A model generated the notes under the pieces. That model made no database searches. It was not told the DNA's origin and worked only from the letters and a program-made list of their open reading frames with translations. A stretch of 64,000 bases of DNA, from NCBI GenBank assembly GCA_007026445.1, contig VDMD01000014.1, forward strand, positions 186,001 to 250,000, read 5' to 3'. Of the stretch, positions 24,043-63,896 are shown piece by piece (position 1 is the stretch's first letter; the number at the start of each line of letters is the position of its first letter). The position numbers and the translations under genes are program-made. The stretch comes from Schizophyllum amplum. Taxonomy: Eukaryota > Basidiomycota > Agaricomycetes > Agaricales > Schizophyllaceae.

Positions 24043-24451
24043 GGTCAGGCTCTTGCGCTCGTCGTTATGCACTCATATAGGAGCCGCTTCGTACGAGCTG
24101 GTGATCAGACACAAACGCGTTGGTTTGGGAGGATGGAAGTAAGAGACAACCGCTGTCGTCGTCGTCGTCTGACCATTTGGCCTAGACTTGGTGATCATCG
24201 CCACGACGGTCACGAAAGGCCGGGCGCTCAATTGAATCTGCAATCTATCATCAAGAAACACTCCGCCGATCCTGATTGGACAGTGGCTACCAGCCTACCT
24301 TGGATCGAAACACGTTGCAGAAAGTCCTGGAAATGCTTGAACAGACATAGTCATCTGCCTGCGAATGAGAACAGGGCAGCGCAATTTGACTGGGGGTTAC
24401 ATCGCAGTAGCCTCTGTGAGGGCAAAAAGAATGTCGTCAACATCATGGACG

Positions 24452-24538
24452 AGCCCACCGCGGGGGTCGAACCCGCAGCCTTCAGATTCTACATTAGCCG
24501 TAAAAGTCTGACGCTCTAGCCGATTGAGCTAGGCGGGC
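24452..24538 (-). tRNA. tRNA-Lys(UUU) with 13-nt intron, inverted copy
   Basis: The mature sequence is the same as the tRNA at 19022-19108 but on the opposite strand. The intron differs at two positions. Anticodon TTT, acceptor stem and T-arm are intact, so both genes look functional. They flank the aspartic protease gene in inverted orientation. Confidence 0.93.
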
Positions 24539-43988: not shown

Positions 43989-45167
43989 CCGAGGCGATGA
44001 AGGGACGGAGAAAGAGAGGAAATGTAAAGAAACGCGTCTTTCCGAAAGGGCGCAACCTTTATACATAAACCCCGCGTCACATGACGTCGTAAATTTAGGT
44101 CCCGAAAACTTGGATGGCGCTGTGCGCCGCTCCACAACCACCAGTCCTTTCCCATTGTTCTCCTCCAGGCAGTGGCGCCGCCCATTGTCGTTCATCGTTT
44201 GTGGTGCTTTACAGGGCGATCCTGTCCTTTCTCTTGTCCTCCCTCGTCCGATCCTCGACAAGGCACGCCGAGGCGGCCTCGTCCCAGCATCGCGTGCACG
44301 TTGCCTGACATGAGCTTCTTCGATTCCTTCTCGTCTCTTTCCAATTTTTTAACACAGTTCGTAGCCAATGACATGTCGTTGCCACGACGCCTTGGTTACG
44401 CATTGTAGCCACGAACTTCGAAGCTCCTCTTTGGCCGGGCTGCGCAAGACTGCTCCTTTGGGCGACGCGATGCTCTGCCTTCGGGTCCGATGCGATGCTC
44501 ACGAAAGCCGAGCTCGCCCACGCGCCAAAGACCACACAAACCATCCTAAAACATGGTCGGTCCACCGAGAAGACGAAGGCCTCTGCAAGGACCATCGCAG
44601 ACCCAAAGAGCGGCGATAATAGAGCCCAAGGATTCGACCCTTCGGTCGCTTTACATACGCCGCCCAGCGTACGGATTACGCTCAAGCCTGCATGTTGAAC
44701 AGAGCGTCCCTGGAAGACGGGCGACATGTCATCTGGTAGACAGGCAACGACAAACACGCTTCCGCCTGCCGGCAAACAGCACCTTCATGTTACATACCTG
44801 TACGTGCTCGTCATGCGTCCCGTTCATAGAGGTCCGTAGATATCAGGTCTACGCAGTATGTGACAAGATGCAAAGCCCGTTCGCTATCTGCATGTCCGTG
44901 CCTCCCATCCCCGGCCGTATGTGCACGCACCTGCTGCGCCCGCGCGCCTCGAGGACACCCCGAGAACGCATCTCGTGTATTGATAGCCCGTCCATTGTTC
45001 CCAAAACGCAACCCCGTTGTGTATCCTAGTCTCCCAAGGCAGAGTCCGATCGAGTAATCGGACGTCTGCTAGCAAACGCGCCCCCGATATCGGCTGCGCG
45101 GGTAATGCTACACGTGATGCTTCCCACGATTTTCCGCATAGACCGCAAAAGTACCGTGACCTGTCAG
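43989..45167. other. Gene-poor stretch
   Basis: No gene, tRNA or repeat is recognisable between the AA11-like promoter and the helicase gene. Open frames here are short and overlap on all strands. Confidence 0.35.
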
Positions 45168-45208
45168 ACGCGTCTCCAATATAGCACACGACGCGTCTTT
45201 CGACGCGT
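45168..45208 (+). promoter_or_regulatory. Three ACGCGT (MCB-like) boxes before the helicase ATG
   Basis: ACGCGT occurs at 45168, 45191 and 45203, within 52 bp of the helicase start at 45220. ACGCGT is the core of the MluI cell-cycle box bound by MBF-type factors in yeasts, which drive genes for DNA replication at G1/S. Function here is inferred from the clustering only. Confidence 0.4.
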
Positions 45209-45219
45209 TAGTGCGCGCC

Positions 45220-45693
45220 ATGTCCTTCCAATTCGTGTCTGAAGAAGGCAGAGACATCATCCGACGCATACTTGTCGATAAAATCCAGGAAGAGCCACAC
45301 GATCACCAACTAGACCTCATCACGCACGTCCTCGACCGCCGCGACACGCTCTCTGTGACTTACACCGGAAGCGGTAAATCGGGCTACATCTACATGCTGA
45401 TGACAGTTGCTCTGGCGATTCTGGAAGACTCCCGGCTATGTCCCTCCGCATGCATTCCCCTGAAACCTCTGGCTATTGTCGTATGTCCGACAATTGCCCT
45501 TGAGGATGATCTGGTATGTTCTCAGCCGAATCTTTAGAGTCGCAGCTCACAAGAACAGGAGCGAAAGATGATCAAATACAATATCCCTTCTCTCGTTCTC
45601 AGTCAGGCGAGACATGACAAGATGCGAGCTCAAGGCAAGAATTTATTCGCTGAGTTGAAGAGCCATCACTACAACGTGCTGCTCCTCACTCCG
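45220..45693 (+). pseudogene. RecQ-like DNA helicase gene, 5' part (split by retrotransposon)
   Basis: The start ATG is 45220 (MSFQFVSEEGRDIIRRIL). Exon 1 ends at 45513, and a 45-bp intron (GTATGT...GAACAG) leads to ERKMIKYNIPSLVLSQ. This part carries the Walker A motif TYTGSGKSGY (~residues 46-55) and motif Ia-like IVVCPTIALEDDL. The frame is cut at TP (ACTCCG) by the left LTR at 45694. The remaining domains are at 62361-63896. Joining the two parts across one copy of CTCCG keeps the frame and gives about 654 residues. Such helicases unwind DNA 3' to 5'. This 5' fragment alone lacks the DEAH box and the second RecA domain and cannot be active. Confidence 0.85.
45689..45693. repeat. Target site duplication, left (CTCCG)
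   Basis: CTCCG directly precedes the left LTR and is repeated directly after the right LTR at 62356-62360. This 5-bp duplication is typical of Ty3-type integrases. Confidence 0.92.
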
Positions 45694-46381
45694 TGTGGTA
45701 CGGATGGACGATGGACATGCTCGACGGCCTACAAGCCGTATTTACTTATTGTTGTATTCTTGTGACACGCGCACGTGAGCGTGACTCTTGGTTAAGCGGC
45801 GGTAGATCTGTCGTAATATCATCTTGCTTTTACCCATCGTCTCGTCTGTCTCGTGCCTCGTGTCTCGTCTCGTCGCCCTCCGCGGTACGTCTCGTACTAG
45901 CGGCGGGCTCATATCACTGACAGCCCGCGGCGGATGCTTCGCATCCAGCACGCGGGCTCATATCACTGACAGCCCTTGGCGGATGCTCAGCCATCCAGCA
46001 CTCGGGCTCACTTAGGTACGCGCGCCGTCTACGGCTACCGCGAGTGCCTTCAGCGGCACCTGCGCCTTCAGCGGCGTTCAGCGCCTCCGCGGCGTATCCC
46101 GCCCTCACGACGTCCTGCGCCTCTGCGGCGTTACGATCGTTTGGGCGCTCGGCCCCAGGGAGCTCCACTCCCCCAGGACCTCGCGCCTTCAGCGGCGATC
46201 CCCTATGCTCTCCCCGCTCTCTCCCTTTCATCTCATTCACTTTCCTTACGCGCTCAGGCAGCGCTCTATTCTTATCCTACTCCTTCCACGTCGCCTCCAG
46301 TACTCTCTCCTCGGCGACGCCTACAGTCCTACCCATCTCGCCGGAGCTCTCTCCGAACGCTCGATGCACGACCGCATCACA
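45694..46381 (+). repeat. Left LTR (688 bp)
   Basis: It starts TGTGGTACGGATGG and ends GACCGCATCACA. It contains a direct repeat of about 49 bp (45903 and 45952, GCGGGCTCATATCACTGACA) with a small GGATGC/GCATCC hairpin, and several CGCC-N5/6-GGCG mini-hairpins. Its sequence recurs at 61668-62355 with a constant offset of 15,974. Confidence 0.95.
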
Positions 46382-46382
46382 A

Positions 46383-46402
46383 TGGTGGCATGACCGCGGA
46401 GC
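46383..46402 (+). other. Candidate primer-binding site
   Basis: TGGTGGCATGACCGCGGAG begins one base after the LTR end. A tRNA primer would end ...CGGTCATGCCACCA. I cannot name the tRNA. Confidence 0.4.
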
Positions 46403-46624
46403 TTCGACGAGATGGCTACACTATCGACGACAGCTCCTGAGCGCTATCTAATTAGCGACTCCACGGAACCTTCTTCAAACAAACGGGACCAAAAACGGGC
46501 GTCCGAATCCGCCCGGTCGCAAGGCACCTGGACGACAGTCACTCCCTATCGCCCTTAAAAAGAGCTCGAACCGGCTCTCGCTCTCTCGCTCCCTGCTTCC
46601 TCTCGCGCCTGCTACTTGCCCAAC

Positions 46625-49600
46625 ATGTCGCAGACCTCGAATCGCTCCAAACGCTACCAGAAGCGCGACGAACGTCGCACCGTCGAACCCCCTCCTGCTC
46701 CGGACCCCCCGCGTACTCCGCCCGACCGCGCAGCCGCGGCCACCGAGGAATCCCCCTCCTCCACTCGCACCGTGTCATATACTCCCGCGGAGAGGGATCA
46801 CCCGGCGGAAGCGCCTTCTGCGGCGTCGTCGGGTGCTACCATCTCGACGGCTGGAGCGCTACCCGCAGCGTCTAGTCGGTTGGAGACTCCCGCGACTTAC
46901 GCAATAGCCGTCCCGTCCCCGTTCAACGCCAGGACGGCTGCGTCTCCTGCGACTCATACGTCGACGGAAGACGAAGGGCCTCGAGTAGCCTCGCCGACCC
47001 CGGCTCCTTCCGGGTTGTCCAACATCTCGCTGTCATCAAGCGCGCAGGATGTACAAAGTATCTCGGCGGCCCTGCACGCTCACTCGTCGGTGGAACACGA
47101 GGAACCCCGTTCCCCTCTGCCGGTGTACTGGGGCACGAATTTCGGCTGCTACGATGAGGACTTAGAGGAATCGGTAGAGCGCCTCTGCGGCGGACTATGG
47201 AACGAAGGAGAGGAGGAAGACCCACTCGCTCCTTACGGCGCTATCGACGGCGTACTTCCTGGCAGGAATGCGTATAAATCGCACGTTATACGCTGCGCAG
47301 TCATGCGTTACGAGTCGCATCACCGCGACCACATCTGGGACTGCTTCTCAGAGGGCATCGAGACCTTGAAGGTCGTTCCTCTGAACTCGACCGTCCTATG
47401 GGCCTTCGTCAGCCCGGACGACATGTCAAAGCAGCTACAGTGCGTCAACCCCTTGTACCTCCAGACGATCTCGCACCTGGTGGTCGCCGGTAACCAGATC
47501 ATCTCGGCCATCGGCAACTTTTTCGACACACCTAACAAGCAAATCTTCCTGGTCGACCCCGGCTACAAGCTTCTCGAAATCGTTGGAGGTCATGAAGACG
47601 CCCAGGAGGTCATCCTCGCCCTCGTATCTCTTCTCCGACGGCTTCAAGTGGCGGACCGTTATATCGAGTCGCGCCTGCAAGCCCTCACCCGGATTTTGGC
47701 GAATGAGATCGAGTTCGACGACTTGGCCTCCCAGAAGTCAACTCTCTCCTCGATCCGCTCCCGCTTTGGAACGGCATCTCCTCGCATGGAACTGGCGAAG
47801 TTGGCAGTACGTCCCGACTATCGAGAGAAGTTCGACTTGATCGACTCCGCCAAGGCGGCAGAATTGGAGGAGTATTACCGCAAGGACGGGCGCTCCATAC
47901 CGACTGCCATCTATCGCGCGGACCGCCCTAGCTCGCGCGCCTCTACCGCCTCTGGCCGCGCGTCGACGAGAGGACCCTGGTCTCTGGGTCCCTCTCAGGA
48001 GCTAGCGGCTTTGGCTCCGTACGTAGCGCGACCCCGCGCGAACGACGACCCTCCCGCCGCACAGCCGATATCGATCATGCAGCCGCGACAGGCTCCCCGG
48101 TCGTCGAGCGACACCTTGTCCACCCTAGGTCAGCGACGGCACCATGTACGCTCCATCATGGGATACTCCGTTCCTACCGAGGAGACGGAATCGAAGAGTG
48201 GGGGGCCATTGTTACAGCGGTCGAACCCAGCAGCGCCTCCAGCGGCGAACGCTACCGCTCCTCCCACCTCGAGGCGAGCTCGCTTCATCAATTTGGAAAG
48301 AGAAGAACCTCCTCATTGGAATTCGAACGGAAGGACCGGCAACGCCTCCGCCTCAGCAGCTCCAATCGAGGAGAGCTTCGGCAACGCACAGCTAGGAGGC
48401 AGCAACACAATCACCGCCCCTGTGACTGTCCTTGGCGGTGGTCAGATACCGCTTGACCAGCCTAAGGAACCCTCGGGACCCGGGAGACTACCACCCGGAG
48501 GTTCGGGGCGCCCGAGCGGAGGTCCAGGATTCCCTGGGTTTGGAGGAGGACCTGGCGGGTTCGGCGGGGGTCCCCCGGGCAGCGGCGGCCCTCCAGGTGG
48601 CGGCGGCCCTCCAGGCGGCGGCCCGCCCGGAGGCGGAGGTCCCCCAGGAGGAGGTGGCCCTCTTGGAGGCGGTGGTGCGCCGACCCCTCATTTCATAGGA
48701 TGGCCCGGCAATCCCGTCCCAGGTGGCGGCCCTCCTGGAGGCCCTCCTGACGGAAACGGACCACCACCGGGCGATCCTCATGCTCAGCAGCCGCCTCCAG
48801 CGCCTTCAGCGGCGAAAGAGGAGCAGTGGCAAATGAACCGGAAGATTCCCCTGAGCGACGTTCCTTCCTGGAACGGACAAGGGTCCTCTCTTATCGACTA
48901 CCTCATCGAGCTACAAGAATTAGCTCGTCTCGGCCCGCTTGTACAGGCGGGGGTAGCGCAATACGCTCCCCGTCGATGGTCAGGTCCAGGCGATTCTTGG
49001 TGGAGGACGTTGCCGTTCGGTGCTCGCGTCCAGATCACGAGCTCATGGGATTCGCTCATGCTAGCGATACGCGACCACTTCATGGACGATCGCTGGATTC
49101 GCGACCGTACGAACGAGTTCAACGATATGGAATTCCGCAAGGGCAATCGTACGGAGACGCCTTTGGAGTACCTTCAACGTCGTATCCGTATGGCCTACTT
49201 CCTGTACTACAACCTCGGCGACACGCACAACTTCGTGTACGAGGTACTGCGGAACATACCCTCCGAGTGGAGAGCGACGCTCAATGAGCAGCTACAAGTC
49301 AACGTCTACGAGCTCGAGAACGCCGCACACTTCTTCGAGACCTCCCTGCTTAGCATGTGGGACCTACATCAGCGCTCTCGAGTTCCGGCTCCCGCGACGA
49401 GCGCTTCCACCCCTGGCCGCTTCTACTTTAAGAAAGGAGCTCGGCCGGTGGAAGTCGAGGTTATACCGGACGACGAGGGTAATCAGATCGACCCTATTCC
49501 GTTCGAGGAGGGCATCCTACTGGAAGAGAGGACTCCGGTTAAAGAGGCAGCTGCAGCCGATGCGCGGCGTGCCCCGAAGCCAGCTCAAGGCAAGACAGAC

Positions 49601-52600
49601 TGGCCGAAAGGACGTACTATCAACGGCCACGCCTTCCCTCGTCGCGACGACGTCAAGAGCAACATCGCCCCGCTCAAGGGCGACTGCTTTATATGCACGA
49701 GTCCGAACCATTACGCGCGGGATTGCCCTCACTACGGTCGATGGGATGCGATGCGCCGCGCGAATCTGGTTGAGTTTGACGAGGAACTTTTAGATATGTC
49801 GGATCGTGAATATGTTGCTATGCTTGTGTCGACTCAATCTACCTCTTCTTCCGCTTATCATGGTGTGAACCCGGCTTTCCAAACCTTGAGCGACGCTGTA
49901 CGGACAGGGGCTTGGGCATTGAGTGTGGACGTAACGTCTCCTGCATCCAACCGTAACGAGAGGCGCTCTCGCGCGGAGGACCACGCTAAGGCCCTGAAGC
50001 ATAAGGGAAAGCAGCGAGCGAGCCCTTCTCCCTTGCCCCGCCGTGAACGACGAGCGTCGCCTAAACCTGGATCCGCGGCGGCTTATGCGGCCAATCGTCA
50101 TGGGGCGGTCGACGTCCCGACGTTCAGCGCCTCTGCGGCGGATAGCCCGATCTTCTACGCGCCTAAAGTGGCTTCACACCCTGCGGGCTACGGAGCGCTT
50201 GATGCTCGTTCCCTACAGTGCTCAGTGTCCATCGGCTCTCCCGATGCAGAACCGACCAGCGGACGTCTTGACTCGGGCGCGGACCTCACCCTTATTTCGG
50301 AGGACTATTTCAACTCCATCCCGGATCTGCCCCCTCCCAAGGAAGGCATGCGTATGAAGCTGTACCATTTAACGGGCGAAGCTTCGCTGTTGGGATACAC
50401 CACCTTTCCGATGTTCACAACGACCGACACCGGCGAGAAGGTGTGCTTTGAAGTCGAGGCTTACGTCGTACGCGGCATGAAAGTGCCTTTACTACTCGGC
50501 GAAGACTTCCATACGGCGTACGAGCTCAACGTGCAACGCTACGCAAATGGCACCTCTTCGGTACGAGTCGGCCGCTCCGGGCGTGTCATCCCAGCTTCTT
50601 CGTCACGACGCATCAGCGCGGGGTTCATGGTCCTCAAGCGCGACAACAGCCAGTCGTTCGTGCGTGCTCGCGGCCGTAAACGGGCCAAAGCTAAAGCGCG
50701 ACGCTCGAAGGCGGACCCAGTGCCAGTATATGCGGCGGAGGATTATATTATCGTACAAGGAAGCGTACATAATATTCGCATCGACGCGCCTATGGAGGAC
50801 CGCGAGGACTGGCTCATTGACCGCCTAGCCATTGGCACTGAAGATGGTTCGGTCATGGCCGCTCCGCTCACCTGGGTCAACTCGGCTTCTCCCTACGTCC
50901 CTATGGCGAATCCCGGCTCGAGGCCTCACCTCATCCGCAAGGGAGACATCGTTGGCTATCTCTGCAGCCCAGAAGACTGGATCGACAAACCGGTCAATGA
51001 CGAAGAGCGCCATCGCTATGCGGCGTCTTTGGAGGTTATTGAGACAGTCATTCAGGGTTCCTTGCGCCAACAAGACCTCTATACGAGGCCAGCGGCGGAG
51101 GCGTCTGACGGTGCGGGTCCTTGCCCGCCGAATGACAAGGCGGGGGAAGTCGAGGACGAGCTATGGGGGCCGAAGACAACCGCTCTGCCAGACGAGCCCC
51201 TACCCGACTTGCCTATCGAAGAGCTCGTCAACCTGGGCCCAGACATCCCCGACGAGTACAAGGGACCGCTGGCAGACGTCTTACGCCGCAACGCTCGCGC
51301 CTTCGGCGTCGGAGGACGACTAGGAGAAGTGCCTACTAAGGTCCGAATACCCCTCAAGGAAGGATCTCAACCTGTGTCTCTTCCGGGTTATGGCGCGTCA
51401 CCCCTGAAGCGCGAAGTCATTGAGAAGCAAGTCCACGAGTGGCTTGAGAAGGAAGTAATTGAAGCTTCTCAGAGCCCGTGGGGCTTCCCGGTCGTAGTTG
51501 TCTTTCGAAACGGCAAAGCCCGCTGCGCAATCGACTATCGACGCTTGAACGCCATGACCATACCGGACGAATTCCCCATTCCTCGCCAATCCGAGATCAT
51601 CCAAACATTGTCTGGGGCGCAAGTTATCAGCTCGTTTGACGCTCTCGCTGGCTTCACTCAGCTCAGCATGGCCAATGAGGATAAGGAGAAGACGGCCTTC
51701 CGCAGCCACATGGGTCTGTACCAGTTCAAGCGAATGCCCTTCGGGTTACGCAATGGACCATCCATCTTCCAGCGGGTCATGCAGAGCGTGCTCTCGCCGT
51801 ACTTGTGGTTATTCGCGCTTGTGTATATCGATGATATCGTCGTGTTCTCAAAATCCTGGGACGACCACCTCGTGCATTTGGAGAAGGTCTTGAGCGCCAT
51901 CGCGGCGTCCGGCATTACACTCTCTCCCAAGAAGTGTTTCATTGGATTCTCCTCGATCTTGCTCCTTGGCCAGAAGGTCTCACGGCTGGGCTTGTCAACG
52001 CATGAGGAAAAGATACAGGCGATCCAAGAGCTCGAACGGCCGAAAAATGTGGCCGACCTACAGCGTTTCCTAGGCATGGTTGTGTATTTTTCGATGTACA
52101 TTCCCTTCTACTCCTACATCGCTTCGCCTCTCTTCCGGCTTCTCAAGAAAGGGTGCAAATGGTCCTGGGAAGCAGAGCACGAAATCGCGTTCCAGCAGGC
52201 CAAGGACGCGCTCATGGAAGCGCCAGTGCTCGGCCATCCCATGATGGGTCGGCCGTATCGGCTGTATACGGACGCCTCCGACTTCGCTCTCGGCGCCTGC
52301 CTGCAGCAGGTTCAGCCCATTAAGGTGGCCGACCTACAGGGTACAGCGGCGTACAAGCGCCTGGAATCCGCATGGTCGAAGGGTCTCCCGGTGCCGTCTA
52401 TGTACACTACGTACAAGGACTCCGCAGAGCAAGACGCGCCGGACGAATGGGCGGCGACTCTGGACGATACCACCGTTCACGTGGAGCGCGTCCTGATTTA
52501 CTGGAGCCGTACTTTGCAACCGGCAGAGCGGAATTACAGCGCCACGGAGAGGGAAGCCCTGGGTGCAAAGGAAGCTCTCGTCAAGTTCCAGCCGATCATT

Positions 52601-54835
52601 GAGGGCGAGCGCATCCTCCTCATCACTGATCACGCCGCCCTCCAATGGGCCCGCGTCTACGAGAACGCCAATCGGCGCCTCGCGGCGTGGGGGGCCGTAT
52701 TCGCAGCGTACCCGAACCTACGTATTATACACAGGCCGGGGCGGATTCACTCGAACGTGGACCCTCTGTCGCGTTTACCCCGCGTGCCGCCTCACAGTTC
52801 TCCGACGCGGGACCGAGCCGCGCATATACCGGTCGACGAGTCTAAGCAATCCTGGCGCCAAGCGGCGGAGGATGCGGATAAGTCGACGCCGGCGCCGAAG
52901 GCGGTCTTCGCGGCGGAGGCAGGCGCTCGGGACGCCTTCGCGGGGGCTTTATTCTGGGAAGAGTTATTGGAGACCCCGCAAGGCCACTCACCTTTCGCGG
53001 CGTACGCCATACAGACTCGACGTCAAAGACGCATGGCAGAAGCTCCGCAAGGACTGGAGCAATTCCCGGGTCAGGAAGCTTTGAGTCGGACGAGCTCGCC
53101 CGCGCCTAATAGTGGCGAAGCGAGCCGTCCCGTTTCTCCAGCGCCGGATAGTGGCGAGGAGAGCGACTCAGACAGCGAAGGAGGGGACGACCTGCCGTAT
53201 CCCAAGGGCGACCACTGGACGCACCCTCCCGGAGTTCCAGACTTCGAACCATCAGAGGAACCTGAAGCCCACCTCCTCGTACAGTTGGCTCCCGAGCTGG
53301 TTGAACGATTCTCCCGCGGGTACGAGGAGGACGCGTTCTTCGCCAAGCACGTCGTGGAAAAGGAGGCGAACGCCCAGACACTACTCACGCCGTCGCGATT
53401 TCAGAAGGGCCGTAACGGTCTTCTCTACTTCATCAATGCCGACTGGCAGTACCGTCTCTGCGTGCCGAGGAGCGAGGTCAATTTCGTCCTACGCCTAATA
53501 CATGATTCCCCCTTCGAGAGTGCGCATGCTGGTGCGACTCGATTTATCTCTCGCTTGCGAGACACCTTCTTCTGGCCTTCAATGTTCAAGGATGCCGACC
53601 GCTTCGCTCTCACCTGCGACATTTGCCAGAAAATCAAGTACGACCGTTCGGGCAAAAGCGGCGGCTTGCGACCGGCTCACGTTCCAAAGCGACCCTTCGA
53701 AACCGTATCCTTGGATCTCATTACGGGGTTACCGCCTTCTGGGAAGGAGAAATATACCGCGATTCTGGTAATCGTCGACAAGCTCACCAAATTCTCGATG
53801 TTCATACCGACGTATAACCAACTCAAACGCGAGGATTTCGCCCGAATCTTTGTCGAGCGAGTGGTGAACGTCTACGGACTCCCGCAACGTATCATCACCG
53901 ATCGGGACGCTCGTTGGGCTACTGACTTCTGGAAGTCAGTCGTCTCTTTCTACGGCAGTAAAATGGCATTGTCTTCGTCGCACCACCCTCAAACCGACGG
54001 CCAAACGGAAGTTATGAACGCGATGCTGGAACAGATGCTTCGTGCCTACGCTACACCGGACCGTTCCTCCTGGGCGAAATGGCTGAGCGTTCTTGCGGCC
54101 TCCTACAACTCCAGTGTCCACGCCTCGACCCGCTTCACTCCCAACTTCCTTCTGTACGGTTATAGCCCCAGCATGTTCGCCGGGCTATTTGCGACATCCC
54201 CCAAGGAAGTACAGCGCCCCCAGCTACGCAGCAAACTCGCCGAGGACTTTGTGGAAGAACTGGAGCTATACCGCGAAGCCGCTCGGGAATCGGTAGTCTT
54301 GGCTCAGGAGAGGCAGGCTCGCGCCTATAACAAGGGGCGGAAGCCGCCGATCGAGTTCAAGGAAGGCGACTGGGCCCTGGTTAATCCTCACGCTCTGGAA
54401 TTGGTCGAATCCGAAGGCAACGGCGCCAAGCTAGTGCAACGAGCCCTAGGTCCTTTCGAGGTGACCGAGAAGATCAACCCTATGGTATATCGGCTACGTC
54501 TACCAGCGAACTACCCTATGCATACGGTGTTCAACTTGTCTCATCTCAAGAAATACCACCCCTCGCCGGCCCAATTCGGCGAGCGCGACGTGTTACCGGA
54601 TCCTCGCGGCGTTTTACCAGAGCAAGAAGAGTATGAAGTAGAGGCCATCATGGGCCATCGCTTCACGAAGCGAAAGACAGGGAATCGTCTTCAATACCAT
54701 GTACGGTGGAAGAACTACGGCCCCGAGGACGATCTATGGATATCCGAGAACGCGTTGCGCAACTCGCCTTTGCTCAGGGCGGAGTACTGGCGTATGAAGG
54801 AAGCGATAACGGGTGAAAAGCCGCCCTCGACTTGA
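46625..54835 (+). CDS. Gag-Pol polyprotein of chromovirus, single uninterrupted frame
   Basis: The ATG at 46625 (MSQTSNRSKRYQKRDE) opens 2,736 residues without a frameshift between gag and pol. In order: a long Ala/Ser-rich N-terminus; a Gly/Pro-rich stretch (~630-720, GGPPGGGGPPGGG type); a retrotransposon gag core (~735-915); a CCHC knuckle CFICTSPNHYARDC (~1021-1034); a retropepsin with LDSGADLTLI (D1216); reverse transcriptase with FDALAGFTQL and YIDD (1734-1737); RNase H with YTDAS (D1883) and ITDHAALQW; and an integrase with H-x7-H and CDIC zinc ligands, then D2364, D2426, E2462 (DD35E). The chromodomain (~2670-2725) includes YHVRWKNYGPEDDLW. All catalytic residues are present, so the element looks competent. 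A fused gag-pol without frameshift implies another way of setting the Gag:Pol ratio. Confidence 0.95.
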   Translation: MSQTSNRSKRYQKRDERRTVEPPPAPDPPRTPPDRAAAATEESPSSTRTVSYTPAERDHPAEAPSAASSGATISTAGALPAASSRLETPATYAIAVPSPFNARTAASPATHTSTEDEGPRVASPTPAPSGLSNISLSSSAQDVQSISAALHAHSSVEHEEPRSPLPVYWGTNFGCYDEDLEESVERLCGGLWNEGEEEDPLAPYGAIDGVLPGRNAYKSHVIRCAVMRYESHHRDHIWDCFSEGIETLKVVPLNSTVLWAFVSPDDMSKQLQCVNPLYLQTISHLVVAGNQIISAIGNFFDTPNKQIFLVDPGYKLLEIVGGHEDAQEVILALVSLLRRLQVADRYIESRLQALTRILANEIEFDDLASQKSTLSSIRSRFGTASPRMELAKLAVRPDYREKFDLIDSAKAAELEEYYRKDGRSIPTAIYRADRPSSRASTASGRASTRGPWSLGPSQELAALAPYVARPRANDDPPAAQPISIMQPRQAPRSSSDTLSTLGQRRHHVRSIMGYSVPTEETESKSGGPLLQRSNPAAPPAANATAPPTSRRARFINLEREEPPHWNSNGRTGNASASAAPIEESFGNAQLGGSNTITAPVTVLGGGQIPLDQPKEPSGPGRLPPGGSGRPSGGPGFPGFGGGPGGFGGGPPGSGGPPGGGGPPGGGPPGGGGPPGGGGPLGGGGAPTPHFIGWPGNPVPGGGPPGGPPDGNGPPPGDPHAQQPPPAPSAAKEEQWQMNRKIPLSDVPSWNGQGSSLIDYLIELQELARLGPLVQAGVAQYAPRRWSGPGDSWWRTLPFGARVQITSSWDSLMLAIRDHFMDDRWIRDRTNEFNDMEFRKGNRTETPLEYLQRRIRMAYFLYYNLGDTHNFVYEVLRNIPSEWRATLNEQLQVNVYELENAAHFFETSLLSMWDLHQRSRVPAPATSASTPGRFYFKKGARPVEVEVIPDDEGNQIDPIPFEEGILLEERTPVKEAAAADARRAPKPAQGKTDWPKGRTINGHAFPRRDDVKSNIAPLKGDCFICTSPNHYARDCPHYGRWDAMRRANLVEFDEELLDMSDREYVAMLVSTQSTSSSAYHGVNPAFQTLSDAVRTGAWALSVDVTSPASNRNERRSRAEDHAKALKHKGKQRASPSPLPRRERRASPKPGSAAAYAANRHGAVDVPTFSASAADSPIFYAPKVASHPAGYGALDARSLQCSVSIGSPDAEPTSGRLDSGADLTLISEDYFNSIPDLPPPKEGMRMKLYHLTGEASLLGYTTFPMFTTTDTGEKVCFEVEAYVVRGMKVPLLLGEDFHTAYELNVQRYANGTSSVRVGRSGRVIPASSSRRISAGFMVLKRDNSQSFVRARGRKRAKAKARRSKADPVPVYAAEDYIIVQGSVHNIRIDAPMEDREDWLIDRLAIGTEDGSVMAAPLTWVNSASPYVPMANPGSRPHLIRKGDIVGYLCSPEDWIDKPVNDEERHRYAASLEVIETVIQGSLRQQDLYTRPAAEASDGAGPCPPNDKAGEVEDELWGPKTTALPDEPLPDLPIEELVNLGPDIPDEYKGPLADVLRRNARAFGVGGRLGEVPTKVRIPLKEGSQPVSLPGYGASPLKREVIEKQVHEWLEKEVIEASQSPWGFPVVVVFRNGKARCAIDYRRLNAMTIPDEFPIPRQSEIIQTLSGAQVISSFDALAGFTQLSMANEDKEKTAFRSHMGLYQFKRMPFGLRNGPSIFQRVMQSVLSPYLWLFALVYIDDIVVFSKSWDDHLVHLEKVLSAIAASGITLSPKKCFIGFSSILLLGQKVSRLGLSTHEEKIQAIQELERPKNVADLQRFLGMVVYFSMYIPFYSYIASPLFRLLKKGCKWSWEAEHEIAFQQAKDALMEAPVLGHPMMGRPYRLYTDASDFALGACLQQVQPIKVADLQGTAAYKRLESAWSKGLPVPSMYTTYKDSAEQDAPDEWAATLDDTTVHVERVLIYWSRTLQPAERNYSATEREALGAKEALVKFQPIIEGERILLITDHAALQWARVYENANRRLAAWGAVFAAYPNLRIIHRPGRIHSNVDPLSRLPRVPPHSSPTRDRAAHIPVDESKQSWRQAAEDADKSTPAPKAVFAAEAGARDAFAGALFWEELLETPQGHSPFAAYAIQTRRQRRMAEAPQGLEQFPGQEALSRTSSPAPNSGEASRPVSPAPDSGEESDSDSEGGDDLPYPKGDHWTHPPGVPDFEPSEEPEAHLLVQLAPELVERFSRGYEEDAFFAKHVVEKEANAQTLLTPSRFQKGRNGLLYFINADWQYRLCVPRSEVNFVLRLIHDSPFESAHAGATRFISRLRDTFFWPSMFKDADRFALTCDICQKIKYDRSGKSGGLRPAHVPKRPFETVSLDLITGLPPSGKEKYTAILVIVDKLTKFSMFIPTYNQLKREDFARIFVERVVNVYGLPQRIITDRDARWATDFWKSVVSFYGSKMALSSSHHPQTDGQTEVMNAMLEQMLRAYATPDRSSWAKWLSVLAASYNSSVHASTRFTPNFLLYGYSPSMFAGLFATSPKEVQRPQLRSKLAEDFVEELELYREAARESVVLAQERQARAYNKGRKPPIEFKEGDWALVNPHALELVESEGNGAKLVQRALGPFEVTEKINPMVYRLRLPANYPMHTVFNLSHLKKYHPSPAQFGERDVLPDPRGVLPEQEEYEVEAIMGHRFTKRKTGNRLQYHVRWKNYGPEDDLWISENALRNSPLLRAEYWRMKEAITGEKPPST

Positions 54836-54890
54836 CGTGTAGGCGCCGGCGTGGCGTGTTGGTCACTTATCGCGATGGTGCCTGCTGCGG

Positions 54891-54902
54891 CGTCACGTGA
54901 CG
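54891..54902. promoter_or_regulatory. 12-bp palindrome CGTCACGTGACG before accessory ORF
   Basis: A perfect palindrome centred on the E-box CACGTG lies between the pol stop (54835) and the accessory ORF start (54993). A TATA-like ATACATACTTAAGG lies downstream of it. Together they suggest an internal promoter for the accessory ORF, although no direct evidence exists. Confidence 0.4.
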
Positions 54903-54992
54903 GATAGCTTATCACTGATGGATATACATACTTAAGGGACCAGGGTACGAACGATCGCTTTTCATTCTTGCCTTCCCCCACCATCTGCTCTT

Positions 54993-57604
54993 ATGTCGGA
55001 CGCCCCGCCTGCCGACCCTTCGACGAGTAGTGCCAGTGGCGGTAACGCGCCCAGCGGCGGACTCACGCCAAGCGGCGTTCCAGCGCCTAGTGCGAGTACA
55101 TCGAGCGGCAGCGGGGCTGCGGCCACGGCAGGTTCCGCGGCGCCCTCAGCGCCCGCCTGGCCCCTGACATTTCGTCAACCACGGCTCCCGTCGATTGCTC
55201 ACTACGACCGGACGCCCGTAGCAGACGTCCAACTGGGATGGGTCCTTCCCTGGAGCTTCCGCATCGTACACCGCGTCCAGCTGGGATTCACGCAAGACTC
55301 ACCTGGCGCCGACCCCGGTCCCGTCAGTCTCTGGTCGTGCAACATCGTCCTTCATCCTTCTTCGACGACGGCGCACATTCCTTACTTTCCCGGCATCGTC
55401 GGCGACCCCATCCGCCATGACTCGCTCACCGACATACTCGCCCCTGCCGCAGACTCATCGCACCGCTACTCGGACGGTCACCTAGGTCCTGGCGATCCGT
55501 GCGAGCACGCCCAATACTACCGACCGGGCTACCCTCATCTCGCATTTATTCGCCGTTCGTCACCGGACCTCGCTGGCCACTACCCGTCTTACCGTGTAGT
55601 CTTCCATTCGGGAAACACGGAGGTTGAGGCAAGCACCAACCGGTGCTGTGCCACCTCCGCGTTTGTCGACTCCCTGCTCACCGAGAACGCCGAGCATGAG
55701 ACGGTTATGCTCCAGCTGGCGGACGTTACGGGCCAATCGTGGCCGGACGTCGCAAGGAACCGCCCTCTGTTCCCGAGTGAGCTCGACATCCGTCGCTTGG
55801 GTTCGCCTAGCAGTCTGGACGACTACGTCGATCTTGTTGCTCATGTCCAGCGAGGTCTGCGCGTCAAACTGGCGTGGATTGAGCTTGCTCGCCTCCTCCA
55901 GGAGGACGGCTGCCGTCTTCCTGTAACGGAACTACGGCGTCGGGGTCCTCTCGACGCGAACATGTCCTTCCTGGGCGTATGGATCAATACGGCGCCGCAG
56001 GACGAGGGGTTATGGTTATACATCCGGGGGCGCGTGCCGATATATGTGGCAGGCCCCTCCTCGAACAAGGCATCAGCTCAGGACGCCGTCGCGCCGCTCA
56101 GGCGCTTACCTTCTCGAACCATTAGCCGTACCGTGGTCGACGCGGCACTAACCCAGGCGTCGTCCTTCGCACCCGACCGTCCACCAGCTGCCGCGCCGCG
56201 GCCTCGCGGTTCGTTCCTCGCCCGCGCCAAGAACATCGGTTGGCGCGAGCAACCGCAACTCGAGCACGACGTGGTCGAGGTGGACGGCTTCCCTCACGGG
56301 TGGATTCAGACACCCACGGTACCCGCTGCGCGTACGACCCGCAGCTGGGACACTTGGGCCGAGAGCACCGACTGGCTTGGTGAGCCTTGTTTCCTCAAGG
56401 TGGCGCCCAAGAAGGTGTCCTCGGTTTGCAAGGGCAAGGTCACGCTCTACGACGAGGAGAACTCACGGCGTTACTCGCTCAACAAGCCGTTGTCCTACGA
56501 AGGCCTGGTCGACGCTGGTACGTTCGGGTGGCCTCTTCCACGCTGGCCGCACTACTACACGCAGTACATCGACTCCGTCGACGTGGAGGACTTCCAGCCT
56601 CGCGGGAGTGGGCGGTGGGTCTACGCCGCCGCCAACCCGGGTGAGCAATGGTCCGGTCTCGTCCAAGTCAGGCCGGCTCCCCCTCGAGCTCAAAACCCGC
56701 GCGCGGACGAAGAGGAGACGATCAGCCTGGGGTCCGACGATGAGGACTGGAGCGGCTTACCGGGGCGGAGACCCCCCAGTTGCGCCTGTCGCGGCGTCTG
56801 GGCCCTCCCCGCAGCCTGCGCCTCCAGCGGCGACCGCGGCTACCGGCGCTCCCACTCCAGCTCAACCCGACGTCTTGATGGCGTCTCCGCTCCCCGAGGC
56901 CCCCATGGATCTGGATCCTCGTCCAACCACTCCAGCGGCTGGCCGCCCACCTACGCCTCCGCTGCTTGAGGCGGAGATCCAGGACGCAGTCCGTCGCTTC
57001 AATGAGTGGCAGACATCGTTCCCCCAGGACGTTGGACGCATGAGCCTCCGCGCTCCACGAGGCTCACCTCCCACGTTCGCGGGCGCTTCGCGTATTACGT
57101 GCGCGTCACGCCTTTCGCGGCCTTGTCCTGGCCAGCGTTCCTACGCGGTCTCACGCAAGGGGCGCACTTCCAGACGATTGAGATCGACTCCGCGTTTCGA
57201 GCGATCGAGGACGGTAACGTTCTGTTCGGCGTTACGCTACCGGACCTCCAGCTGGCGGATGCCCTGGTCACTACCTTGCGTCTTCATGGTATTGCGGGCG
57301 CCGGCGCGGCGGCGCAAACCTTAACCGCATCGGAGTACTCGGCAATGGCCGTGCACGGTCAGTCCTCCTTCCGCTGGGAACGGCCGCCCGTCGCTCCTTC
57401 CGTTCGCGCTGCTTGGTACCGTGCGTCGACCGGGCGGGGCGCGATCAACCGTTTGCGCCGGTCCCCATCGCCTGTGCGTCCTCGCCGAACGCCCTCGCCA
57501 GCTCGCTCCTGGAGGCGCCGACGATCACCGTCGCCTCCGCGTCGCCGTTCTCCTTCGCCGCGCCGACGGGATGACTCTCCACGGCGACGACATCCTAGTC
57601 CCCG
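54993..57604 (+). CDS. Accessory retrotransposon ORF of unknown function, 5' part
   Basis: The frame opens at ATG 54993 (MSDAPPADPSTSSASGG), 157 bp after the pol stop, in the sense direction. After a low-complexity start come ~550 globular-looking residues (FRQPRLPSIAHYDRTP, GYPHLAFIRRSS, NMSFLGVWINTAPQDEGLWL, GWPLPRWPHYYTQY). An acidic patch (GSDDEDWSG) follows. Near 56,760 the reading moves to the +1 frame (APVAASGPSPQP...RFNEWQTSFPQDVGRM), and near 57,070 it returns to the first frame (GRFAYYVRVTPFAALSW). The segment ends in an Arg/Ser-Pro-rich region (RRRSPSPRRR) and is cut at 57604 by a DNA transposon. There is no signal peptide or membrane segment, so it is not envelope-like. I recognise no known domain. 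Confidence 0.72.
57598..57604. repeat. Target site duplication, left (GTCCCCG)
   Basis: GTCCCCG borders the nested DNA element and recurs at 60783-60789. An 8-bp duplication with one mismatch (A/G in front) is also possible, which would suit hAT-type transposases. Confidence 0.75.
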
Positions 57605-60600
57605 CAGCTCATGCTGTGCAGTGATATATAATAGATGCCGAAAGTTTCCATGGCATTAATTGCAATAACCAGCATAAATTCTCTGCTAAACATACCGACG
57701 GTTCATTTGCACTGTGGGCCGGTCTGGCTCGCCGGGAGCGTGCCGGGCAGCCCGCGGCACGAGGCGACGACTGGCTCGCGCGCGCTGCGGCCTCAGCCGC
57801 GTGCACGCTCGCGCGCCTCGGTCCACGATCCGACGCGTGCCGAGCGCGTCCGGATGACGCATGCCGCCCGTCGTCGCCGCGTCGCTTGCGCTCGCCGCCG
57901 CATGCAGCATGGGCTGCAAACATGCCGTGTAGAGTAAAAACAATCATATATCATTGTATCTACATTATGAGAAAGCGAAAATTTTCGCAGGAGAAGGGGA
58001 TAGGGATGGGGGATGAGGTGCGCGTCGGGAACGCGACGCGTCTGTGTGCGGCGGCGGGCGCGCGTTGAGAGCAGAGCCCGTCCACGCGTTGCGCGAGGGC
58101 GCGTCAGGAGCGCGACGCGTCCGCGCGTTGCGGCGTGGGCACGTCGCGGCGCGTCGCGGGTGGAGCCGCCGCCGACGCTCAGCGCACGATCGTTGTTGCA
58201 CGCTGCCAACGAGCGGTCACACGCAGCGACAAGCAGACCGTCGAGGACGTAGCTCTCGACTGCGTCGCTGTGGCTGCGCGCTCACTCGACGCCCTATGCC
58301 CGACGCGACGCGACGCGTCATCGCGTTATTCTTGATATCCCGGACCGCATTTGACGCGTCAGGGGGTCGTTCGGTTACCGCGGCGTGGGGGGAGTCAACG
58401 AGGGGTAGGGTGGGGCATGGGGAGCAGCCGTGGTGAGGAGACGACGGGCTGGCTAGGCCCGATCGCCCTTGTTTGGTGCTGTTGTTGCAGATGCGGGCAG
58501 GCGCGAGAGGGTGCGCGTCGTGCAGGGCGGCTAAGAGGAGACCCTCCGCGTCTCACTACTGCGGAGGTGACGACGGCTGGTCTTCTCAGGCTCGCCCCGA
58601 GCGACGCGCGTCCTCGCGCGCTTGCTCGGGTCGCGTGAGATCAGAACGAAATGTAAGTATATTATTGATGAGCAGGGTGGGGGGACGCACCTGGAAGGGC
58701 CTCCGTGCCCGAATACTCCTTTGCGCTCTTCGGGGGCGCGCTCAGCGCGTCGCGGTGGACGGCGCGACGTGGTTGAGGACAAGGAGAGACGTGACAGTAA
58801 CGTCACGAACGCGTTCATTTGGGCGCGTCCGGGAGGATGCCGGCGCGTTAGTGAGGCATCGCGGATCTCCCCTGCCATACAAACAATGTAGATACTAATT
58901 ATCGTGTATGCTATAGACCGATCGGGGCTTTGGATGGGTCTCAGACCCTTGGAATATACTCAAGTTAAGTAAGGTATTCAGAAGGTGTTCAAAATGCAGT
59001 CCTAATGCGAGTTTGTACTATTTTCACATATATCTAAGCAATCTAAACTACATAGATATGTTGAGGCCACTGCACTGTATACGCTGCAACTTTGACTGAA
59101 ACGAGAACCCCAATATGCGCCTCAGAAATGTTGAAAACGTTGGTAATCGGATGCTCGAGAAGTGGTTTGAGCATACATCTTGCCCGAACTCAGAGGTGTT
59201 CAAAGTTCGACCCCTTAGTATAGTCGGATTCTTACAGGAATTCGTATATGTACTCTAATTGCTATCTAAGTAAGCTTCCCGAAGGGCCTGTGAGGGATTT
59301 TGCCTCTCGGCACGATCCCGAGGACGTCGAAGGCAACGCCGGCGACCTTCGGACTTCGGTCCGAGGCGCCGAACGTCCGCGATCAACACTCCTTTGCCTG
59401 CAACCGCGACCGCGGCGCGGTCGCGGTTGCTGGCCGCCCCTCTGCTTCATCACCGTACACTTCAGAAGCCTTCCCCCTGCCTATTCCCCGACTTCTACGC
59501 AAATCGGCGCGTTCAAAAGCACCCGATGCTGGATTTGGCGAGCGAGGCGGCGCGGGGAGCGCCCCTCCTCAGGTGCGTCCGCTAAACACAGCCCGTGAGC
59601 TTCGAACTAACAACATCATAGAGATACCCTTGGAGCTCGTGGGCTCGCGCGGAAGAGCGCTCGCGGCGAAGAGCGTGCGGGAGAGCGTACACGCTCTCCC
59701 GCACGGCGCCGGACCGCTTGCCGCGCGACTACGTCCCCAAGGACGAGCGCACCCAAACGCACGCGTGTCAGACGCCGGGGAAGCGGAGGAGGCGCAACGA
59801 TGGAGGGGAGGACCAGCGTGGCGAGCAGGCGAGGGTGTTGCCCGTTATTGCCAGCGGCCAGCGCGCGTCGGGCGCTAGCCGCTTGCTGGCAACACGCACG
59901 CTCACCGCCGTCCGTGCAGCACGGCTCGCACGGCTCTACGCAGCTGAAGCGCCATGTGCGGCGGCAGGCATAGCGCTGTCGCCGTCGCTTCGCTCTCCCC
60001 CCCCCTCTCCAGGCCTCGCCTCCCGCGCGTCCCGCCAGCGCGCCTCGCCTCGCGCACCTCCCCCCTTCCCGCGCTACCTAGGTGCCCTCGCACGCGCCTT
60101 TGCACCTACATGCGCGACATACGCAAGCCATCGCCAGACGCGAGCGCGCAGGCGATCACAAGCAACGCGCCTCCCCCCCACAGCACGCCGTGCACCGCAT
60201 CCCGGTGCTGTACATTCCCGCGCTCATCGCGGCAGACCCTCCCTCCCTACACACACACAAGCTGGAGCACCGGCGGCCGCTTTACGCGCGCCGCGCGCGG
60301 GGCGCGGCGCAAGGCGCGCTGCAGCTCGCTCCGTATTGCGTCCCCGCCTGCTGCAGCGGGCGGGGACACTTACATTCATGTACTGAGCACTTCGAACCCC
60401 CCTAAAATATCATTTTTTATCATTTTTGGACGAGCGCGAGGGGGCGCGCCGCCGACGCCGCGTGCAGCGGCGAGCGCGGCGCCAGCGGCGACGCCGGCAG
60501 TGCGTCATCAACTCGCAGCCGGCACGCGACGGAGCCGGGGCCGAGGGCCCGCGCGTGCCGGTCGTGGCCGAGCAGAGCCGTGCAGGCTCGCGCGCGAGCA

Positions 60601-60782
60601 CGAGCCGGGCCCCAGCCGCCGCGCGGGCTGCCCTAGGGCCTACCCGACGAGCCGGACCAGCCCAATAGCCCTAGAAGGGCAGTAGCTCGTCGGTATCTTA
60701 ACGCGAGAATTTGTGCTGGTTAATGCAATTAATGTCATAGAAACTTTTGTATACTAATACATTAGGTGCACAGCATAAGGTG
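57605..60782. mobile_element. Nested DNA transposon with long terminal inverted repeats (3.18 kb, non-autonomous)
   Basis: The left end reads CAGCTCATGCTGTGCA and the right end, reversed, CACCTTATGCTGTGCA. The imperfect inverted match continues through AGTTTC, CATTAATTGCA, AACCAGCA and ATACCGACG to about 100 bp. It then continues weakly through a GC-rich part (GGCYGGTCYGGCTCGYCGGG, GGGCAGCCCGCG) to ~170 bp. A 7-bp GTCCCCG duplication flanks it. The interior has a block rich in ACGCGT and GCGTC near the left, an AT-richer non-coding block (58890-59290) and GC-rich sequence. No transposase motif is recognisable. hAT-like affinity is inferred from the CA-start and duplication length. Confidence 0.82.
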
Positions 60783-61636
60783 GTCCCCGACGTCGTTATT
60801 CTCCCCTCCGTCGGACGATATCGCCGCGTCGGCGCTCGCGCAGCCCAGTCGCCTGGGGCTCACAAAGCGGCGGATGGGGCAACACCTCCGACAGCGGTTG
60901 GGGGGCGCGTTCCAACCTTGGTGCGGGGTCAACAGGATCAGCGCCTACAGCGCCTTCAGCGGCGGTAGGCTCTGCAGCGTCGCCAACCCCTTCGAGTGGC
61001 GTGCTTTCGACGGCCCCTCGGCTCACGCTGAACCTGCACGCTCCTCCCCCCCCTCCACCCGCGGTGACGTTCCCCGCCTGGCCTTTGCCGGAGCTGCCAC
61101 ACGACTACCACTACGGCATCTTTTGTCGTATGATGGCGGCCTGGCCTTCGACCGACCCCTTCGCCGTTGCGCAAGCGGCTCTGTCCACGCCGCTCGCCCC
61201 GGTCGTGTCCTTGGTGCCCCCGACGCCGACCACGCCTGCCCCCGCCCACGGCGTGTCGCTGCTGGACCGTTTCTCGGATCCGTTGGTCGCTCTGGACACT
61301 CCGGGGGCTTCTTCCTCGGCCGGCGCCGCCTCCTCGTCGCTGCTCGGGCGCGTCGCGCCCCTTCCTTTGGCGTCACGCCTGTCCGACGGTCCCGGGGTCC
61401 CCCCGCTCGAGGACCGCCTGTCCGCGGATGCCGGGCGCGACGACGACGACGACATGGTAATCGACGACCCCAAGGGCAAGTCCAAGGCGAAGGGCAAGCA
61501 CCGCGGCGGGAAGAAGGTGCGCGAACGCTGGGCACGCGCGAAGGAGCGCGACGGCAATCCGGACCCGCGTTATCCTGACGGCTTCGGGCCTGGAGGTCCC
61601 CCGCCCCCGGGCGCAGGAGCGGCGGCACCTATCTGA
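60783..61636 (+). CDS. Accessory retrotransposon ORF, 3' part after the nested transposon
   Basis: Directly after the second GTCCCCG the frame reads RRYSPLRRTISPRRRSRSPVAWG, continuing the Arg/Ser-Pro-rich region broken at 57604. Removing 3,185 bp leaves the codon phase unchanged. The remainder contains a Pro-rich stretch (APPPPPPAVTFPAWPLPELP), a short conserved-looking DYHYGIFCRMMAAWP, an acidic run (DDDDDMVIDD), a basic Lys/Arg region (KGKSKAKGKHRGGKK) and a Gly/Pro tail ending at TGA 61636, 31 bp before the right LTR. Without the insertion the whole protein would be about 1,150 residues. The Arg/Ser, acidic and basic patches suggest nucleic acid or chromatin interaction, which is only inference. 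Confidence 0.65.
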
Positions 61637-61652
61637 AGTGCTGAGCCCGTCT

Positions 61653-61667
61653 CGCATGTGGGGGCGT
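61653..61667 (+). other. Candidate polypurine tract
   Basis: A G-rich stretch (CATGTGGGGGCGT) lies immediately before the right LTR, where plus-strand priming would start. It is short and imperfect. Confidence 0.35.
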
Positions 61668-62355
61668 TGTGGTACGGATGGACGATGGACATGCTCGACG
61701 GCCTACAAGCCGTATTTACTTATTGTTGTATTCTTGTGACACGCGCACGTGAGCGTGACTCTTGGTTAAGCGGCGGTAGATCTGTCGTAATATCATCTTG
61801 CTTTTACCCATCGTCTCGTCTGTCTCGTGCCTCGTGTCTCGTCTCGTCGCCCTCCGCGGTACGTCTCGTACTAGCGGCGGGCTCATATCACTGACAGCCC
61901 GCGGCGGATGCTTCGCATCCAGCACGCGGGCTCATATCACTGACAGCCCTTGGCGGATGCTCAGCCATCCAGCACTCGGGCTCACTTAGGTACGCGCGCC
62001 GTCTACGGCTACCGCGAGTGCCTTCAGCGGCACCTGCGCCTTCAGCGGCGTTCAGCGCCTCCGCGGCGTATCCCGCCCTCACGACGTCCTGCGCCTCTGC
62101 GGCGTTACGATCGTTTGGGCGCTCGGCCCCAGGGAGCTCCACTCCCCCAGGACCTCGCGCCTTCAGCGGCGATCCCCTATGCTCTCCCCGCTCTCTCCCT
62201 TTCATCTCATTCACTTTCCTTACGCGCTCAGGCAGCGCTCTATTCTTATCCTACTCCTTCCACGTCGCCTCCAGTACTCTCTCCTCGGCGACGCCTACAG
62301 TCCTACCCATCTCGCCGGAGCTCTCTCCGAACGCTCGATGCACGACCGCATCACA
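61668..62355 (+). repeat. Right LTR (688 bp)
   Basis: It has the same length and, as far as I can compare by eye in all reading frames, the same sequence as 45694-46381. The last part is open in frame with the helicase sequence downstream. Confidence 0.95.
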
Positions 62356-62360
62356 CTCCG
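62356..62360. repeat. Target site duplication, right (CTCCG)
   Basis: CTCCG follows the right LTR directly and duplicates 45689-45693. Confidence 0.92.
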
Positions 62361-63896
62361 GAGATGCTCTGCTCGAACGTGCTCGCTCCGGTGCTTGAGC
62401 TTCCCGACTTCCAGCGGCGCCAAGTTGCAATCATGGTCGACGAAGCGCACTTGATGTACGTCTGGGGACGATCCTTTCGCACGCAGTACACACAGATTGG
62501 CTTTGTTCGACAGCGCTTCTCTGCGAGCGCACCGCTTGTCGCCTTCACTGCTACGCTCCGACGCGGACGGACTCCCGAACAATCTCCTCTCGACTGTGTA
62601 CGACGCTTCCTAGGCTTTGATGAAGGCTCGTATCACTTCATTCATCGCTCGTGCGCGCGGTACGAAATGCAAATCACCGTGCGACCATTCAGCCACGGAC
62701 GGCAGAGCGAAGCGTACCCCGAGCTTGACTGGCTCCTCGGTCTCCCTGGGAAGACACTCGTCTTCTGCTCGAGCATCAAATGGGGCGCCAAGATAGCACT
62801 CTATCTGCTCAGCAAGTCGCCTGGCGCTTCACTCAAAAGGCGGCCTCGCACGTACAGTCGACTCCAGACGGACGAGCACAACAACGAGACCCTTGAGCTA
62901 CTGCTATCACCCTCGAAGATGCTTGTCATTGCCACCGACACGCTCGCCGTCGGTATTGACATTCCCGACATCCTCACCGTCATCATCATTGAGCCCGAGG
63001 ACCTCGACGATGCTATTCAGAAGGGTGGTCGCAGTGGGCGCGACGCCTCCCTTGTCCCACATCCTCGTGCTGTGATATACCTGCCGAGCAGGGTTTACAA
63101 CGACCCGCAGTCTGTTCTAGACAATGCGGAAGCCACTGCATCCCAAGGCTCGAAGCGGATAGACACGAGTCTCGCAGAACTCGCGCTCGCATCGTGCAAA
63201 CTGCGCAGTATCGACGAGCAGTACGGCAACGACCCAGACGAGCCACCCTGCTCCTGCACGCGCTGCACACTACATCCGCGTGCCCTATTCCCTTCGAACT
63301 GCGACTGCTCTGGCTGCCAGCCCGAGATCTTCGAGGTGTCCAAGAGGACAATGAAGAAGAAAACAAAACAAGTTCCCGAACGACTTGTCATTCGGAAGCC
63401 GGAGCGCGAGCTGGGGCGAAGCTACCTCCGTCGCTTCCGAGAGGACGTGGCCATCGCTGGCGGCCACAACGCACCCGCCGTTGCGGTGCTCTCCAATGGA
63501 GAGATCGAAACCATTCTTGACCTCATGCAGACGGAGGCGCACGACATCCAGTCTATGGCCGCAGTTTGGGACGCCTATCCCATGGAGACAACGACCGATG
63601 CGCTACAACGTCACCCGCTTGCCGACCATCCTGCTCTTCTGCCCTTCCTTCAGGACAACCCCATCCTGCAGGCCAAAGCACCAGAACTCCATCAAGTCAT
63701 CCTACACATGCACCACGAGTTTGAAGAGGTACGGAAAGCGAAGGGCGCTGCACGCAGGGAGAAAGCAGCTGCCAAACGAGCCAGCAAGTCGAACGAAGAC
63801 GGGGCGCGAGTGGTTTTGGACGAGAGGGCAGATTCGGACTCGGAAGAGTTGGTGGACATTGATAACAATGAGGAGACGACGATAGCTATTGAGTAG
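62361..63896 (+). pseudogene. RecQ-like DNA helicase gene, 3' part
   Basis: From GAG at 62361 the sequence continues the helicase frame to TAG at 63896 (511 residues). It begins with EMLCSNVLAPVLEL and then the DEAH box (IMVDEAHLMYVWG). The aromatic-rich loop characteristic of RecQ proteins (WGRSFRTQY), motif III-like AFTATL, the second RecA domain (TLVFCSSIKWG, VIATDTLAVGIDIPDI) and motif VI GGRSGRD follow. A Cys cluster (CSCTRCTLH...CDCSGC) and a basic/acidic C-terminal tail end the protein. Walker A is lost to the other side of the retrotransposon, so this part cannot hydrolyse ATP alone. An in-frame ATG inside the LTR (or one at 62364 or further in) could still start a truncated protein. 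Confidence 0.85.

Follow-up and report, generated by a model that had tools for sequence, protein, structure and literature searches.

The third open reading frames (ORFs) of long terminal repeat (LTR) retrotransposons are commonly guessed to be envelope (env) genes or are left unexplained. In this work, we describe such a frame, referred to as ORF3, in a Ty3/gypsy chromovirus of the fungus Schizophyllum amplum. The element occupies positions 45694-62355 of a 64,000-nucleotide stretch of DNA, called the window, which corresponds to C46:186001-250000 within the 49.65-Mb assembly. To judge from the excerpts of PMC5408684 and PMC11963269, third ORFs of unknown role are already a known kind. For an accessory protein of an LTR retrotransposon that combines an RNA recognition motif (RRM)-like module with an arginine/serine (RS) domain, no precedent was found in the open-licence literature.

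HIV-1 Rev is a small protein that binds through an arginine-rich motif. It exports unspliced genomic RNA from the nucleus (PMC10309623, in excerpt), which is the task proposed here for ORF3, and no relation between the two is claimed. The Caenorhabditis elegans Ty3/gypsy-type element Cer1 encodes its own nuclear protein, CERV, which is needed for the export of unspliced RNA. According to the excerpts of the same report, CERV is, like ORF3, a large element protein beyond gag-pol, has no similarity to known retroviral proteins and is conserved across related elements (PMC10309623). CERV cannot do without one of its proline-directed phosphorylation sites, and the RS domain of ORF3 carries many serine-proline and threonine-proline sites; however, CERV has a G-protein-like domain, a Cys loop and a spliced mRNA, whereas ORF3 has the RRM-like module and the RS domain. 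The two are likened in role only, from the published description of CERV and not from sequence.

Other accessory genes share the position of ORF3 between pol and the 3' LTR. Bdelloid rotifer LTR elements carry non-env ORF3s in this slot, whose kinds differ by lineage, as they do here. Those in the excerpts of PMC5408684 are GDSL esterases, DEDDy exonucleases and coiled-coil or transmembrane proteins, none of which combines RRM and RS. In plant Retand elements, the TRP28 ORFs are conserved extra ORFs in the same interval with a suggested regulatory role; unlike ORF3, they are antisense and contain a different domain (PMC11963269, in excerpt).

ORF3 as a conserved gene of one chromovirus clade

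ORF3 is a conserved gene of the element and is under purifying selection along with gag-pol. Between the window copy and its relative on contig C266, gag-pol has a synonymous divergence (dS) of 1.20 and a non-synonymous divergence (dN) of 0.054, with dN/dS of 0.045 (2,724 codons). For ORF3, dS is 1.16 and dN 0.131 (977 codons), and the resulting dN/dS of 0.113 (95% bootstrap interval 0.09-0.14, 500 resamples) is approximate, since dS is near saturation, but the constraint is nonetheless plain. The ORF3 codons were taken in three pieces (587, 185 and 205), excluding a frame-shifted stretch, an insertion and positions 60783 to ~61018. The first 150 codons are the loosest (dN/dS 0.26), and the remaining parts range from 0.075 to 0.111.

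When the first 600 residues of ORF3 were compared with the genome, eight matches were obtained. These include the copy on C266 (80% identity to the window query; ~1,180 codons with one in-frame TGA), that on C255 (45% identity; open across 1,236 amino acids from its ATG) and an ORF3-like gene on C278 (30% identity; open). In the C223 element, an open frame of 1,126 codons follows immediately after pol; it has 22% identity, and its profile comparison with the N-terminal domain of the window copy gives a probability of 99.5% (E 5e-23, 272 columns). A preliminary description of ORF3, made from the letters of the window, had proposed asking whether other copies keep the frame open with dN/dS well below 1; the frames on C255 and C223 are open, and the ratio is ~0.11. 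Insertions that carry inverted repeats of 330 and 608 bp (~98% identity) interrupt the C255 element, yet its ORF3 is open (L041-L042).

The distribution of ORF3 was followed through a genome search for reverse transcriptase (RT), in which 100 of 132 candidates were scored and fragments of one element were merged. Among the matches scored, RT is at least 74% identical at 13 places, and at ten of these an ORF3 match follows downstream, on the contig and strand of the RT (C46, C266, C275, C280, C255, C244, C168, C223, C35 and C279); on C168, the match is restricted to the C-terminal part and is ~11 kb off. The three places without a counted ORF3, two on C278 and one on C255, are partial, and all seven full-length RT matches at this identity are accompanied by ORF3. 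No ORF3 match was found near five full-length RT matches of 59-66% identity (C267, C17, C254, C235 and C273). In the sister element on C267 (RT identity 66%), a 979-codon ORF (L054:318-3257) occupies the ORF3 slot; neither blastp nor hhalign related it to ORF3, and it had no Pfam match above the cut-off. On C273, no ORF longer than 222 codons was present in the 3.4 kb read. ORF3 is thus an accessory gene conserved in one clade of Schizophyllum chromoviruses. Homologues occur in S. commune (P0002, P0004, P0005, P0008), S. fasciatum (P0003, P0011), Favolaschia claudopus (P0009) and Desarmillaria tabescens (P0010), all labelled hypothetical or uncharacterized and having no Pfam domains; as ~8,000 candidates were scored per protein search, this list is a lower bound.

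The ORF3-like gene on C278 (C278:71407-74892; L007, L043, L044) has an open frame of 1,161 codons and an RS domain, and neither a pol match nor an LTR pair was found in the 19.5 kb read around it. To judge from sequence, it may be a copy that became detached or domesticated, or it may be related to the gene from which ORF3 was derived. Such a stand-alone gene would suit the idea that ORF3 is a host gene captured by the window copy alone, but it is equally explicable as a detached element gene. The dS of ORF3 equals that of gag-pol, and ORF3 occurs across the clade, which makes this idea scarcely credible; capture unique to the window copy is refuted by the presence of ORF3 in other copies of the element. 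The same observations bear out the earlier view that ORF3 belongs to the element. Two outcomes had been named at that time as refuting the interpretation, absence of the ORF from other family members and its capture by this copy alone; as other copies keep the gene, neither holds.

In the window, the copy of ORF3 is damaged:

54993..61636, forward strand: whole ORF3 region, broken by an other-frame stretch (~56757-57029) and a transposon
57605..60782, no strand assigned: terminal inverted repeat (TIR) transposon of 3.2 kb inside ORF3, no part of the gene, with a 7-bp target duplication, GTCCCCG

ORF3 sits downstream of the chromodomain-terminated pol. Its ATG at 54993, the end of its stop codon at 61636 and the gap of 31 bp to the 3' LTR, which begins at 61668, were verified as first described. 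The transposon had been taken as the only interruption, which does not hold: the starting frame meets stop codons at 56967 and 57003, and from ~56757 to ~57029 (about 270 bp, upstream of the insertion) the homologous reading is shifted into another frame. The other-frame stretch and the insertion leave the window copy, as assembled, unable to encode the ORF3 protein, despite identical LTRs. An estimate of ~1,150 residues for the undamaged protein fits the relatives on C266 and C255, but no open frame of that size exists in the window.

The TIR transposon looks non-coding, has inverted ends of ~300 bp and has related copies at many places, with 7-bp duplications readable at three of them (two on C281, one on C101). 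On C280, a related copy sits near an ORF3 fragment, at a site other than the one hit in the window.

Architecture and possible role of the ORF3 protein

The following parts were located in the protein:

55266..56672, forward strand: N-terminal conserved domain (~residues 92-560), no known fold found
56697..56756, forward strand: acidic patch, from composition
57087..57383, forward strand: RRM-like module, fold predicted on the C266 homologue
57444..57604, forward strand: RS domain, from composition, severed by the transposon and resuming after 60782
61367..61423, forward strand: twin motif LASRLS / LEDRLS (general form LASRLS/LxDRLS), the two starts separated by 13 residues
61409..61549, forward strand: acidic run, then a basic nuclear-localisation-like tail, from composition

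All features of the preliminary description are found here: the globular N-terminal part, the acidic patch, the Arg/Ser-Pro domain, the acidic run and the Lys/Arg-rich tail. In line with that description, the protein matched no known domain above the Pfam cut-off. The slot between pol and the 3' LTR would suit an env-like membrane glycoprotein. A hydropathy scan, the only method applied to this question, revealed no signal peptide at the N-terminus and, with a 19-residue span, no membrane segment whose position agreed among the window pieces and homologues, in line with what had been claimed. The maxima of the three window pieces are 0.79, 1.23 and 1.63, the last at residue 128 of the tail piece; the C266 counterpart of this peak reaches 1.65, and the C255 tail has its peak at 1.40; the gene models P0003 and P0008 peak at 1.61 and 1.63, located elsewhere. 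Four of the pieces and homologues offer an env reading peaks of 1.61-1.65, all of them marginal. The lack of a signal peptide and of a consistently placed membrane segment, together with the RS domain and the long disordered acidic parts, makes an envelope protein very unlikely.

SR proteins are built of RRM and RS domains and couple RNA to the splicing and export machinery. The middle module of ORF3, modelled on the C266 homologue, has a predicted RRM-like fold, with RRMs dominating the top of both fold lists, and an RS domain is found in the ORF3 types of the window, C266, C255 and C278. In the window, C266 and C255 types, the predicted RRM-like fold and the RS domain stand in one protein, which resembles the plan of SR proteins. 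Taken together, these predictions suggest an SR-like architecture, in which an N-terminal domain with no recognised fold is followed by the RRM-like module, the RS domain, conserved short motifs and finally a basic tail. Several features weigh against this assignment and against the role proposed below. The RRM-like module has no Pfam RRM match and no clear RNP1, its fold scores are moderate, and the C223 homologue has no RS domain. Unlike SR proteins, ORF3 is encoded by a retrotransposon and contains a very large additional N-terminal domain.

The SR-type plan of RRM and RS, together with the Cer1 precedent, leads us to propose that ORF3 acts on the RNA of its own element. By analogy, we give an even chance to ORF3 being an element-encoded nuclear RNA-binding factor for that RNA, serving its export, splicing escape or packaging. 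A nucleic-acid or chromatin-binding factor had been suggested before; the nucleic-acid part is consistent with the predicted RRM-like fold, whose position beside the RS domain favours RNA over chromatin as the target. A transcriptional or anti-silencing regulator, which would bind small RNAs, chromatin or the DNA of the element to maintain the element's activity and would contact host factors through its RS and acidic stretches, is possible, though rather doubtful. The Foldseek list also holds ferredoxin-like DNA-binding folds (EBNA1), the basic tail and acidic patches would suit such a role, and a DNA-binding regulatory function was proposed for the TRP28 ORFs in the excerpts of PMC11963269; however, both fold lists are topped mainly by RRMs, and the integrase chromodomain already serves chromatin contact.

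The RRM-like module and the basic tail would also fit RNA packaging, and the large N-terminal domain is conserved, as might be expected of a protein with a structural or packaging function in the virus-like particle, where it would bind RNA without having to pass through the nucleus. We consider such a particle component unlikely, since RS domains are typical of nuclear RNA factors and a zinc-knuckle-like match is already present in gag (18.3 bits, slightly below the Pfam cut-off of 20.8).

The pol-ORF3 spacer and a proposed mechanism

ORF3 begins 157 bp past the pol stop codon, so its own mRNA or an unusual mode of translation is needed. The interval between the two genes is unusually well conserved:

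54836..54992, forward strand: conserved pol-ORF3 spacer, a possible ORF3 promoter, containing CACGTG, GATAGCTTATCA and, ahead of the ATG, a CT-rich stretch

Compared with C266, the spacer is identical at 125 of 156 positions overall and at 77 of 87 within the first 88 columns, a cut picked post hoc from the alignment; the four-fold sites of gag-pol are identical at 622 of 1,345 in the same pair. CACGTG followed by GATAGCTTATCA is exact in the C255 spacer too, and no third occurrence was found in the genome when one mismatch was allowed. All four spacers inspected (window, C266, C255 and C223) have a CT-rich stretch ahead of the ORF3 ATG. Folding of the spacer was no better than that of shuffled sequences. 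The conserved spacer may be ORF3's own promoter.

For the nuclear RNA-binding factor proposed above, the following course can be envisaged. ORF3 would probably be expressed from a promoter of its own within the spacer, and its protein would enter the nucleus and bind the element's own RNA. The RS domain would then couple this RNA to the host export or splicing machinery, and unspliced genomic RNA would thereby exit the nucleus for translation and packaging. This more specific scheme, in which an SR-protein mimic made from an internal promoter seizes unspliced element RNA and passes it to host export as a fungal system of the Rev/CERV type, assembled from the RRM-like module, the RS domain and the large N-terminal domain, is put forward tentatively, as less likely than not.

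The host element, its setting and the meaning of ORF3

The element is a Ty3/gypsy chromovirus with the following further features:

45694..46381, forward strand: 5' LTR (688 bp, the same sequence as the 3' LTR), with its target duplication CTCCG at 45689-45693
46625..54835, forward strand: gag-pol as a single ORF with a zinc-knuckle-like match, RT, RNase H, integrase and chromodomain, from ORF and Pfam analysis
61668..62355, forward strand: 3' LTR, target duplication CTCCG at 62356-62360

Both LTRs are 688 bp long, with the 5-bp CTCCG on both flanks, and the Pfam matches follow the chromovirus order of RT, RNase H and integrase, then the chromodomain at the end of pol (39.5 bits; cut-off 25.1). 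A DEAD-helicase match below the cut-off (45160-45537) and a Helicase_C match (62361-63896) lie on its two sides, so the element appears to be inserted into a helicase-like gene.

The window LTR regions (45694-46440 and 61637-62355) are 95-96% identical to those of the copies on C266, C275, C280, C113 and C279, whereas the interior shares just ~79-82% identity with C266, C275 and C280 (dS ~1.2 against C266). The step in identity falls shortly past the 5' LTR, and, as far as sequence comparison goes, the mismatch looks like an exchange of LTRs among lineages. Elsewhere in the window, ARAGORN with bacterial settings reported a tRNA-Lys(ttt) at 19021-19109 and an odd tRNA-like match with a four-base anticodon at 24451-24538.

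The unrelated ORF in the corresponding slot of the C267 element suggests that this slot accommodates different accessory functions. The conserved spacer makes internal-promoter expression of an accessory gene testable. A third ORF that has been selected for over near-saturated synonymous divergence, throughout a clade and with a plan suggestive of SR proteins, yields a direct prediction on the nuclear handling of fungal retrotransposon RNA.
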